Shown here: positions 47,491-54,770 of the stretch, piece by piece
How positions within the stretch are numbered: the first letter of the stretch is position 1
Layout of the letters: the number at the start of each line of letters is the position of its first letter
Origin: Verrucomicrobiota bacterium
GTDB lineage: Bacteria; Verrucomicrobiota; Verrucomicrobiia; Verrucomicrobiales; Akkermansiaceae
Assembly: GCA_030835305.1 (NCBI GenBank)
Contig: JAURPJ010000031.1
Span: 1 to 55,054, forward strand
Length of the DNA: 55,054 nucleotides
Direction of reading: 5' to 3'
The notes under the pieces: generated by a model
The model's database searches: none
What the model was told of the DNA's origin: nothing
Seen by the model: the letters and a program-made list of their open reading frames with translations, nothing else
Program-made: the position numbers and the translations under genes

Positions 47491-47647
47491 GCATGGGAAG
47501 ATGGAAGGGGGCGATGGGAATGGGAAGGCTATTGTGTGGCGATGAGATTATTTCGAACGTTGCCAACCAGCGGGATTCCGTCGCCAGCCGGAACGAGATA
47601 TTAAATGGTAATCAATGTCTGGTGAGCTTGGCCTAGTTTGTTGTATC

Positions 47648-48456
47648 ATGAAAAGTTCATCTCCCTCTGCGCGGCAGCAATCCTGCCAGCTATTTCAGCT
47701 TCAGCTGATGTGAAGCTTTCTGAAAGATTGACCCGCATTGCGGGCCACGTCGGTGGAGGCGAGGTCCATTTGTCGGTCACTGATTCCCAAGATGATCTCA
47801 AGGATCTCGCGAGCTTGCTCGATAAGATTTTATCTCTTGTTCCGAAAGGTGAACTCCCGCTAAGGCCCCGATTTGACACGCTCCTCGATGATTTAGGGCT
47901 GTATGCGCTTCAGTGACGAGGTTCCAGCGCCCATCAAATCGCCGGCCTTTGGCACAACAGTTTTTTTATCCTCACAAAAAGAAAGCATGAGGGGGGGCTT
48001 TCTCTGCTGGGCGATGAACCTGAAGAGACGGCTGCCCGAAAATTTCCTCCAGCCGGAGCGGATTTGGTTCTCGAAACCTCACTGAACTTGCGGGAGATGG
48101 AACGGATGGCGCGCAAGATCTCCAAATCGTTTGGCAATGAGGCCGGAGAAGAGGTCGTGTCGATTTTGGCGGAGAGTGGATTTGATTCGTTTGTGGATTC
48201 CGATTTTGGCCCGAACCCAAAAGCCATCATGGATGTGGCCGATTGCCTTCGGGACCTGGACTCTGCTTTGGTGATCTGGAGTGATGGCTCGGCGTCGAGG
48301 ATCAATCTTGAGGAATTGGAAGCCCGACTTGAGAATCAGGGCGAAGAAAGGTCTGCAGTGCCGACTTTTAGGGGTGACAAATCCGATTCACTGAGTTTGT
48401 CTAGGCCAGTGAAGCTCACTCCGGCTCTTCTTCTAGGATTGCGACCCGGACTCTAA
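47648..48456 (+). pseudogene. Secreted-protein gene with frameshift and nonsense lesions
   Basis: The same reading frame runs from about 47638 to 48456 but is broken by TGA at 47914-47916. The N-terminus reads as a signal peptide (FISLCAAAILPAISASADVK). The natural ATG at 47648 (ATGAAAAGTTC) is one A short of joining it in frame, so a single-base deletion is likely. Downstream of the stop the protein continues in frame (RGSSAHQIAGLWHNSFFILT, then LVLETSLNLREMERMARKIS). Verrucomicrobial relatives that I recall have a longer C-terminus, so a truncation is also possible. TTG 47638 gives an alternative start without the frameshift. The stop at 47914 may derive from GGA. Function unknown. Confidence 0.6.
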
Positions 48457-50325: not shown

Positions 50326-50930
50326 TTATCGAACGACTTCCACCGGAGTCCCTGTCGTCACCTTTGCGAATATTTTTTGGATAACGCTTTGTGGGATGCG
50401 CATGCATCCACTACTGCAGGGTGGACGTTTGACGTTGCTGGAGCTATGGATTCCCACCCCACCGCCGGTCATGCGCATCGAGAAAAGCAGGGGAGCTCCG
50501 ACATGCCTGTCCCGACGACCGTGGTATTGGTGGCGGTCGCCACAGTGAACACAACGCCCTTGGTGCCAGGTGGTCTCAAAAATTGTGGAAGCTTTCTTTA
50601 CGATTTTTTTCCATGATGGCATGGGTCCGCGGTGGGTTGGCCTGGCTGGACGTCCGGTGCAGACCGGAGTATCAATGGCGACGTGCTCTCCTCGTCCCAC
50701 GAGGACCTGTGCGCGCTGATCAGTTATCTTGATTCCGATCTTGGTGTTTTTCGGAGTGGCGGCAGCGAAGATCCTCTCGTTCTGTTAGGCCTTCACGGTT
50801 GTGCGGTAGTCACTCTTTTCCTTCAAAGCCTTGTAGGATCCAAATCCATTGCCTTCTCCGGTGGATCTGGAGCAGCTTATTAGGGAGATCGCTGCAAATG
50901 CCAGACCCATAAGGCAAGTATTTCTCTCAT
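50326..50930 (-). pseudogene. Decayed L,D-transpeptidase (YkuD) lipoprotein gene
   Basis: A minus-strand frame from ATG 50910 to TAA 50326 reads as an L,D-transpeptidase lipoprotein: MGLAFAAISLISC lipobox, then NTKIGIKITDQRAQVLVGRG and VAIDTPVCTGRPARPTHRG (compare NTKVRINLSSQRGFLLVND in the next gene), VGAPLLFSMRMTGGGVGIHSS and SSGCMRIPQSVIQKIFAKVT. Lesions: a TAA at 50785-50787; the natural start ATG 50930 (MREILAL) is one base out of frame with the lipobox; and the catalytic SHGC is SSGC, so the His is lost while the Cys remains. The region 50540-50640 is also poorly conserved. It lies directly downstream of an intact paralogue. Confidence 0.75.
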
Positions 50931-50960: not shown

Positions 50961-51614
50961 CTAGTTTGTGACAGTCACCGGAGTGCCAATTTTGGTCTTG
51001 GAGTAGAGGATGGGAATTGCGGAGTAGTGGGTCCGGATACAGCCGTGCGAGGCGTAGCGGCGATTCACTTTCCCTTGGTGCATTCCAATCCCGGTGCGGG
51101 TCAGCCGCATCCAGTAGGGCATGCTCGCTCCACGGAAGCTTCCACCGGCGGGAACCATGTCCTTGCGGGTATCGGCATCGCTATGAACGACTTCTCCGCT
51201 GGCATCGAGGATTTTGCCATAGAGATTGGAGCGCTTTTGTCTGATCTTTTCGATAATTTTATAGTCGCCGGTAGGGGTCTTGTGTCTGGAGCTTCCGGTA
51301 GAAACACGGTAGTCCATTGCCACCTCGTCATTGACCAAAAGGAATCCCCGCTGTGAGGAGAGATTAATGCGAACCTTGGTATTTGATGGATTGGCCTCTG
51401 CCAAAAGTGCGGTGTTTTTCCAGGTGCGTGTGGTGCCGGGATATGAGTCGAGCTTGAAGTGCTCGTAGGTTCCGCGGGGGTATGGATTGGCTCTTAGTGC
51501 CGATTTAATTTCGGTCTGGGCAGGGTTGGGTTTGGGTGGCTTGTTACCGCAGCTTGTCAAAAAAGCGCCCGTTGCAATGGCCAAGAGGAGAGGGGGCAAA
51601 TTATTCGTTTTCAT
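50961..51614 (-). CDS. L,D-transpeptidase (YkuD family), lipoprotein
   Basis: This enzyme makes or modifies L,D (3-3) peptidoglycan cross-links, or anchors proteins to peptidoglycan, in the periplasm. The start at 51614 (MKTNNLPPLLLAIATG) gives a lipoprotein signal with lipobox LTSC. The 217-residue product has the YkuD domain (about 80-217): STGSSRHKTPTGDYKI, ASMPYWMRLTRTGIGMHQG, and the catalytic SHGCIR with H190 and C192. It is the intact member of a tandem pair; the downstream copy is decayed. It is divergent from the lipoprotein gene at 51751. Confidence 0.95.
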   Translation of the reverse strand: MKTNNLPPLLLAIATGAFLTSCGNKPPKPNPAQTEIKSALRANPYPRGTYEHFKLDSYPGTTRTWKNTALLAEANPSNTKVRINLSSQRGFLLVNDEVAMDYRVSTGSSRHKTPTGDYKIIEKIRQKRSNLYGKILDASGEVVHSDADTRKDMVPAGGSFRGASMPYWMRLTRTGIGMHQGKVNRRYASHGCIRTHYSAIPILYSKTKIGTPVTVTN

Positions 51615-51750
51615 CAGGAGCACTTCTCGATAGGCAACGGGTTATTAGAGGGCAGGTGAACAGATGGCAAACCTTCCTGAGTAAAATTCATGTTAAAAAA
51701 ACAGCATTTCATTTGACGACTGGGAATTTTGCTGTTTTTCTAGCACCACA

Positions 51751-52847: not shown

Positions 52848-54026
52848 CTAAGGCCGGATTTCCCAAACTTCACAGACCTGGTTGGGAGAATCTTCGGGGC
52901 CAAAGCGTTTGCCTTCTCCCAGGTAAACCGCTTGGACTCCGTGGTCCTTTCCTTTGTGATAATTCACCATTGAAGCAACGCGGGTGGCCCGGCGAGAGGA
53001 AAATTCCTTGTTGTTTTTAGAGTCGCCTGAAGTGGAGGCATAACCGACGACGAGAAAAAACGAATTTGGATTGGCCGACTTCAGCATATCTTCGATGTGG
53101 GCTTCATGCTCAAGAGCAATCTGAGCACTACCGTCCTTGAAATTGATGGACTCGCGAACATTCGCTTTGATTTGCTCACTGAAGGTAGCGTAGGTATCAC
53201 GGCGGGCGCGGTGATCTTCCGTTTCGATCTTTTTGAGAGCTCGATAAAGAGCAACTGCCCGTGGCGAAAGGTCGTCCTGGGTCACAAAGAGTTTGGGACC
53301 GGCAAGCTCGGTCATGAGCCGCTGGTTCTCGGACCTCAGTCTCGTATTTTCAGTAATACTGTCGTCGAGTTGGGCTTTAAGGAGCGCGTAGGTGTTGGCA
53401 TCAATCATGCCCTTGCTTTTATTCTGCATTCCGGCCATTTGGGTGCCCAGACGGCCGATCTCGGCTTTGGCGGTATCGAGTTCGGCACGGAGCCTGTCGT
53501 ACTCGCTCTGGCTTACCATCCCAGCAGATGTGGAGCGGGCTTGCTCGAGTTGGCGCTGGAGATCCGCTGCCCGAGCGGCATCGATGCGGTATTGATCTCT
53601 CTCGTTACGAAGGTCTGCGTTGGCAGCCGCGAGGGCTGAGGCATCGGCGCGGGCTGCGCGGAGAGCTGAGGCATCACTGGCGCTGGAGTTCGCAAGTCGG
53701 GCGAGAGCCTCGGTGTCATTCTTGATTTGAACGACCAAAGCCTGGGGATCTGTGGTGACCCCGGGAATTCCAGCAATGCGGAGCTGCTCGCTTTTTTCCT
53801 TCTGTTCTTCAAGTTTTTTTCGGAGTTCGGCAACTTCGGAATCCTCCTGGTTGCCTCCGCTTTTATCAAATTGCTGTGTAATCACCAGCAGAAGAAGGAG
53901 CAGGACGACTGCGCCCATAATGATCCCCAAGATAAGGTTTTGGTTAGAGGACGGGGTGGCCCCGACCCCGATCTTCGGTTTTTCTGCACCGACCTCCGTC
54001 TTCGGTTGTTCTATATCTTCTGCCAT
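52848..54026 (-). CDS. Membrane-anchored coiled-coil protein with OmpA-like C-terminal domain
   Basis: The 392-residue product begins with a cytoplasmic-type N-terminus and one transmembrane span (NLILGIIMGAVVLLLLLLVI, about 30-50). A long Ala/Arg-rich helical region (about 60-235) follows, likely a coiled coil. The C-terminal part (about 280-392) contains a peptidoglycan-binding OmpA-like domain: INFKDGSAQIALEHEAHIED, FFLVVGYASTSGDSKNN, KEFSSRRATRVASMV and GEGKRFGPEDSPNQVCEVW. It would bridge inner membrane and cell wall. It is divergent from the YugP-like gene, with 99 bases between the starts. Confidence 0.85.
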   Translation of the reverse strand: MAEDIEQPKTEVGAEKPKIGVGATPSSNQNLILGIIMGAVVLLLLLLVITQQFDKSGGNQEDSEVAELRKKLEEQKEKSEQLRIAGIPGVTTDPQALVVQIKNDTEALARLANSSASDASALRAARADASALAAANADLRNERDQYRIDAARAADLQRQLEQARSTSAGMVSQSEYDRLRAELDTAKAEIGRLGTQMAGMQNKSKGMIDANTYALLKAQLDDSITENTRLRSENQRLMTELAGPKLFVTQDDLSPRAVALYRALKKIETEDHRARRDTYATFSEQIKANVRESINFKDGSAQIALEHEAHIEDMLKSANPNSFFLVVGYASTSGDSKNNKEFSSRRATRVASMVNYHKGKDHGVQAVYLGEGKRFGPEDSPNQVCEVWEIRP

Positions 54027-54125: not shown

Positions 54126-54770
54126 ATGTCCAAATTTCTTCTTCTTTTGGGGTTACTCCCCGTTTTCTTCTCATTCGTCGCCCGGAAATTTCTGAGCGAC
54201 AAGATCGTTCGCAAAGAGGGTGGGAAAGAAGTGTCGCTTTCCGGCCTCGAAATGGTTGAGCGAGTGCTCAAAAAAGGGAAGGCCGGAGAGGTCGATATTC
54301 AGCTGAAAAAGCGGCCTTTTATGGTTTTGGGGCCGGATCATCTTGTGATCTCCCCCTCGCTGGCTGAATCCCGGCGGGCCCGCGATGTCGCGGAAGCGGG
54401 TATTTTGGCGGGCTTGGTCCTGATGGCCCGTCGGCAGGAGAAAGTGGTGGGCTGGCGACGGTGGGCGGTAAAGTTCGGCTCGGCGATGCCGGCATTCACC
54501 ACGATTGTGATGTTTTTTGCGATGGTGATGGGGCGATTGTCAGCCTCACTTTGCTTTGGTGTCGTCGCGGCCTCGCTGGGGCTGGCGACTGCTTTTTTGT
54601 GGTTTACGCTTCCGGTTGAAAGGGCCGCGGCCGGAACCGTGGCCGAGATGTTGGACGAGACCGCCCTGGTGGCCCGTCGCTCCGAAGGGGAAAGGCTGGC
54701 AAATCTCGTGCGGGCGCTCGGCTGGCGGAGAATTGTGCCGGGTGCTATCGCCTGGATTGCAGGCAAGTAG
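54126..54770 (+). CDS. YugP-like membrane protein lacking the HEXXH zinc motif
   Basis: The 214-residue product has the YugP/PF04298 (neutral zinc metallopeptidase) architecture: an N-terminal span (MSKFLLLLGLLPVFFSFVA), LSGLEMVERVLKKG, the region before the active site (LVISPSLAESRRARDVAEAG), two or three further spans (TTIVMFFAMVMG, LATAFLWFTLPVE), and a C-terminal MLDETALVARRSEGERL with the LPVE motif. Where family members have HEVGH, this one reads AGILAGLVL, so the zinc ligands and the catalytic Glu are missing. It is probably a pseudo-enzyme. AGGAGAGG lies 18 bases before ATG 54126, a longer spacing than usual, so the start is uncertain. Confidence 0.78.
   Translation: MSKFLLLLGLLPVFFSFVARKFLSDKIVRKEGGKEVSLSGLEMVERVLKKGKAGEVDIQLKKRPFMVLGPDHLVISPSLAESRRARDVAEAGILAGLVLMARRQEKVVGWRRWAVKFGSAMPAFTTIVMFFAMVMGRLSASLCFGVVAASLGLATAFLWFTLPVERAAAGTVAEMLDETALVARRSEGERLANLVRALGWRRIVPGAIAWIAGK

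Follow-up and report, generated by a model that had tools for sequence, protein, structure and literature searches.

The gene at positions 54126-54770 of the window, which is the whole stretch of 55,054 nucleotides analysed here, encodes a paralogue of the membrane metallopeptidase YugP in which the zinc site has been lost. This paralogue most likely serves at the membrane in a non-catalytic way, for binding or as an adaptor or scaffold, and its main task is unlikely to be the regulation of canonical YugP. Because the zinc site has disappeared and the gene has been kept by selection, a job that requires no peptide cutting is probable. With a paralogue that has no zinc site and is still selected, a role of the YugP scaffold apart from catalysis can be distinguished from the proteolytic one.

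Little is known about what YugP does. In Bacillus subtilis, the single yugP deletion had no effect on germination and the yugP htrC double deletion caused a slight delay, according to the accessible text of PMC13393411. Inactive metallopeptidase homologues that regulate active cousins are a known kind (PMC11266112, whose main text does not mention YugP), and the second histidine to leucine and the glutamate to leucine changes are among the over-represented replacements in substituted HExxH sites (PMC3650047). In this last work, PF04298 appears once, as a neighbour of CLCA_X and not for substituted sites. The zinc-less YugP class resembles the homologues treated in both papers in that its catalytic residues have been replaced. 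Pseudopeptidases and substituted HExxH sites were already known; among the open-licence papers searched, none that describes YugP without its zinc site was found by title or passages.

Identification of the gene as a YugP paralogue

The open frame runs on the forward strand from the ATG at 54126, which is aligned with the ATG of the closest relatives, to the TAG at 54768-54770, and it codes for 214 amino acids. At the N terminus of the protein there is a hydrophobic segment, which is followed by a soluble part, by one helix (residues 85-103), by hydrophobic helices in the region of about residues 105-160 and by a C-terminal part. The protein was modelled by AlphaFold2 with a mean pLDDT of 87.7 and a pTM of 0.82. 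Its features, with the basis of each one, are the following:

54126..54770, forward strand: zinc-less YugP paralogue, 214 amino acids plus stop (frame, PF04298, orthologues, hhalign, joint alignment)
54129..54188, forward strand: N-terminal transmembrane segment, about residues 2-21 (hydropathy; helix H2-31 in the model)
54378..54437, forward strand: residues 85-104, corresponding to the HEXXH-bearing helix of YugP (model, joint alignment, conservation)
54402..54416, forward strand: former HEXXH position, I93-L94-A95-G96-L97 (joint alignment)
54456..54458, forward strand: Arg111 (column conservation in class rows)
54474..54605, forward strand: central hydrophobic hairpin, residues 117-160 (model, hydropathy)
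54618..54620, forward strand: Glu165 of LPVE, candidate third zinc ligand in active relatives (alignment)
54675..54740, forward strand: C-terminal pattern R184, E189, A197, W200 and P205 of the zinc-less class (column conservation)

The only Pfam match of note was PF04298 (residues 35-187, E 7.4e-5), with a score of 22.8 bits that misses the curated cut-off of 27 bits. This cut-off was passed by the orthologues of 11 same-genus genomes (38.1 bits at the top) and by L157 (33.7 bits), and in 7 same-genus genomes, the one of the window included, the orthologue was listed below it. Members of the alignment A4, which omits L119 (the G014 copy), matched PF04298 at E up to 0.01 in 19 of 23 cases, and the NCBIfam search gave no family for the window protein. 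Comparison of profiles with hhalign related 20 orthologues to 10 zinc-bearing intermediate relatives (probability 98.4, E 8e-15) and to 12 canonical YugP proteins (E 5e-14). The preliminary description, made from the sequence without database searches, had assigned the protein to YugP, and this assignment was right; the resemblance is significant at the profile level, though the single sequence remains under the cut-off. That low score is what could favour a chance likeness between hydrophobic proteins, an explanation of negligible probability that was ruled out by the Pfam scores of the orthologues, the hhalign results and the gene order held in common.

Similarity to YugP extends to the length, the N-terminal helix, the SG/TG-E start, the central hydrophobic hairpin, Arg111 and the LPVE glutamate, whereas HEXXH and the DHY(D/N)P region are missing from the window protein, its C-terminal segment is altered and its score lies below that of the family cut-off. 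The LSGLEMVERVL start and the LPVE end noted beforehand are present. The YugP topology, also claimed to be conserved, is found again in the N-terminal helix and in the central hairpin. The exception is the last hydrophobic segment, which hydropathy predicted in 2 of 4 canonical YugP rows and in none of the 4 orthologue rows tested. The C-terminal R184/E189/A197/W200/P205 pattern mostly differs in canonical YugP.

Searches of the predicted model with Foldseek against PDB and BFVD gave no match at E up to 0.001. As regards the zincin fold (clan MA), a second structure comparison returned no row with Z of 5 or more; abylysin (4jiu) reached Z 3.8, with an rmsd of 3.7 for 90 residues, and was level with unrelated rows. 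Sequence searches of solved structures revealed no relative of YugP, the best E values being 0.053 and 0.77.

Loss of the zinc site

A joint alignment was constructed with 46 rows of the window's class, 36 of canonical YugP and 15 of an intermediate paralogue. The same genus supplied 23 of the 46 class rows and other genera of the family the remaining 23; L029 (partial), G012 (partial) and G014 (broken) are not among them. The HEXXH motif was found in 0/46 orthologue-class rows, in all 36 canonical rows and in 10 of the 15 intermediate ones. Its columns fall on I93-L94-A95-G96-L97 of the window protein, the same place at which AGILAGLVL had been read previously, and both histidines and the glutamate are replaced. 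A look at the motif in orthologues had been proposed as a check, and orthologues in which it is replaced do exist. The glycine of I-L-A-G-L is the remnant of HE(C/V/A)GH. In two of the three g32 rows examined (L157 and L158), LLCGH occupies the place where canonical rows read HE(C/V/A)GH, and it looks like a half-erased HECGH from which the first histidine and the glutamate have gone, leaving Cys-Gly-His. Such half-way forms are material for analysing how a membrane zincin turns into a pseudoenzyme.

A HEXXH elsewhere in the protein, which had been considered as a refutation, was looked for and none is present, H72 being the sole histidine of the window protein. Among the 26 class rows printed, six are entirely devoid of histidine, and no His, Cys or Asp column that could form another zinc site is kept by 60% of the 46 class rows. 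A displaced HEXXH was ruled out by the single histidine and by the lack of conserved His, Cys or Asp in the class. The sequence HEM(I/V)E, found around residue 41 in five same-genus rows, is neither a HEXXH nor conserved. Arg111 was found in 44/46 orthologue-class, 36/36 canonical and 15/15 intermediate rows. The LPVE glutamate (E165 in the window protein) was present in 41 of the 46 orthologue-class rows, and its invariance suggests that it is the third ligand of zinc in the active relatives.

Judging from the sequence, zinc hydrolysis by the YugP mechanism would be excluded. Continued enzymatic activity, through a different metal site or without any metal, is very improbable: Glu165 and Arg111, common to the zinc-bearing relatives, are retained, but the class has no conserved His, Cys or Asp and the motif replacements in the copy of the window genome are hydrophobic.

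Selection and conservation

The zinc-less gene is under purifying selection. The dN/dS analysis that had been suggested as a test of this (Nei-Gojobori, orthologues of 21 of the 25 same-genus carriers) yielded a median of 0.087 and a maximum of 0.335 over the 33 unsaturated pairs of 210, the 177 saturated pairs being omitted. For canonical YugP, just 2 of 45 pairs were unsaturated. Mean conservation among 23 same-genus sequences was 0.86 at residues 86-104, where the helix formerly held zinc, and 0.80 at the five motif positions, with 0.72 for the whole protein. When 183 segments of 32 residues were ranked by conservation, residues 86-117 occupied rank 2, and rank 1 corresponded to the segment starting one residue later. 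The description of a conserved scaffold without catalytic residues is thus borne out by the absence of HEXXH from the class together with purifying selection.

A decaying pseudogene is therefore extremely improbable. It would agree with the lost motif and with the copy of one relative (G014) being broken into two frames, but the frame is intact in 23 of the 25 same-genus carriers, the remaining ones being a partial copy at a contig end (G012) and the broken one, and this explanation was ruled out by the dN/dS of about 0.09 and the location of the former zinc site inside the most conserved part. The split of the G014 copy (L105) into two frames may be due to sequencing error or to decay.

Distribution and co-occurrence with canonical YugP

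The zinc-less gene was detected in 25 of 27 same-genus genomes, including the partial and the broken copies; genome G020 matched through its canonical copy alone and G024 gave no match. The 23 named records bear the titles Akkermansiaceae (12), Verrucomicrobiales (8) and otherwise Verrucomicrobia (2), with one record without group. The class profile matched 80 of 87 family genomes, a figure that does not count zinc-less genes, because many of the matches are canonical YugP. Of the 25 same-genus carriers, 8 showed a canonical YugP as well; none was found in the window genome, which is 97% complete. Among the 17 carriers without detected canonical YugP, 8 are at least 90% complete; taken one by one, its absence from a single incomplete genome is poor evidence.

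Gene neighbourhood

An arrangement with an EEP nuclease gene and tatA on one strand and hrpB and zinc-less yugP on the other was observed in genera g8 (L094), g32 (L157, L158), g27 (L171) and g7 (L173, L175) of the window's family, and also in G047 (L085), from another family, whose copy is zinc-less too. In a third family, the second YugP paralogue L080 follows hrpB directly and in the same orientation, an arrangement also seen for the zinc-less copies of several genera, but it keeps HEAAH. Among the 15 intermediate loci, hrpB was near three, adjacent in L080 and L085 and parted by a large open frame from the zinc-bearing copy in L079, and it was absent from the stretch fetched for the other 12. 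Gene order links the zinc-less class to the intermediate paralogue.

The 14 same-genus loci fetched include eight with EEP, tatA and hrpB all present, in a different order (yugP, EEP, tatA, hrpB), one with EEP alone and five with none of the three; the window contig stops inside the EEP gene. In 20 further loci from other genera, the gene was located behind hrpB (7 loci), behind a large protein (6 loci) or behind neither (7 loci, 2 of them near a contig start). Several orthologue-class loci lack the EEP/tatA/hrpB cluster, and no constant neighbour across the family was found in the 14 same-genus loci, the four loci L094-L097 and the 20 further loci. The large protein, whose resemblance to TPR is weak at best, has no known function and is often located 5' of zinc-less yugP in g9, g31 and g30 (L095, L160, L163-L166, L168).

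An OmpA-domain protein (PF00691) is encoded at 52851-54026 on the reverse strand, divergently from zinc-less yugP. A member of this OmpA-domain gene cluster adjoins the gene in the window and in 14/14 fetched same-genus loci, and none was found beside it in L094-L097, from other genera of the family. The OmpA-domain neighbour is a first candidate client in the window's genus.

Origin of the zinc-less class

Phylogenetic analysis was carried out with 84 of 97 rows after removal of the motif columns, 12 rows with close relatives and L030 (very long branch) being dropped and L029 (partial), G012 and G014 omitted. One branch (100/99) set the window's class apart, and another (99/95) did so for canonical YugP. 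Between both classes lay the intermediate rows, which did not form one group and some of which sat on long branches with unsure positions. The root is the midpoint, so the direction of change is inferred. Parsimony required at least 3 changes of zinc state over the 84 rows (40 with motif), a count that includes the window's own lineage, and the loss of the zinc site would predate the divergence of the sampled genera of the family.

As a tentative and rather doubtful scenario, the second YugP paralogue of the order could have had a non-proteolytic membrane function, under selection, before the zinc was lost; catalysis would therefore have been dispensable, and three or more parallel losses of it would have given a family-wide class of membrane pseudoproteases that works without an active cousin.

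HEXXH is also missing from five intermediate-paralogue copies (L078, L040, L085, L086, L035) of three other families of the order, with different replacements. Shortened relatives of about 180-205 amino acids, in which the peptidase domain is reduced in its middle, were observed in genera g27, g7 and g10 (L169-L175); this shortening looks like a further step of erosion, and strict conservation of the fold does not extend to the whole family.

Proposed function

In the proposed mechanism, replacement of both histidines and the catalytic glutamate would leave this YugP paralogue unable to cut peptide bonds by zinc catalysis, and the protein would be placed in the inner membrane through its N-terminal helix and central hairpin. 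A binding or packing surface is suggested by the former zinc helix, now hydrophobic and the best conserved part, by the retained arginine and glutamate and by the new C-terminal pattern, and through this surface the protein may bind partners at the membrane or act there as an adaptor or scaffold, with no catalysis involved.

Two alternatives to such a role are regulatory. A pseudoprotease comparable to iRhoms and FtsH relatives had been suggested in the preliminary description. Part of this suggestion stood, since the gene is under selection and its catalytic residues have been lost, but the active cousin was detected with it in just 8 of 25 same-genus carriers and was not found in the window genome. 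Because most carriers seem to lack canonical YugP, a sole role as its regulator is unlikely. iRhom-like control of the zinc-bearing canonical YugP of the same cell would be consistent with the coexistence of both genes in those 8 genomes (the zinc-less gene being partial in one, G012) and with the pseudopeptidases described in the accessible text of PMC11266112 as controlling active cousins; the 17 carriers in which no canonical YugP was found, the window genome among them, argue against it. Somewhat less improbable, and still the minor option, is a regulator of a different membrane protease or a protein presenting substrates to it. This is a plausible fate for a zinc-less membrane zincin, known for other pseudoproteases (PMC11266112, accessible text) and reportedly for FtsHi, but the fetched neighbourhoods, as far as they are annotated, contain no protease gene that recurs beside this one. 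A non-catalytic binding, adaptor or scaffold function remains the most probable one.

Degraded genes in the window

Two other genes present a picture of decay in the same assembly, with sequencing error being possible. On the forward strand, 47644-48345 is a gene remnant with an in-frame stop and a large internal deletion, which corresponds to an open frame of 537 amino acids in the close relative G021; inverted repeats were searched around it and none was found. On the reverse strand, an in-frame stop interrupts 50329-50913, a second copy of L,D-transpeptidase type, which is open in G021 (L089) and lies beside an intact L,D-transpeptidase-like paralogue at 50964-51623.
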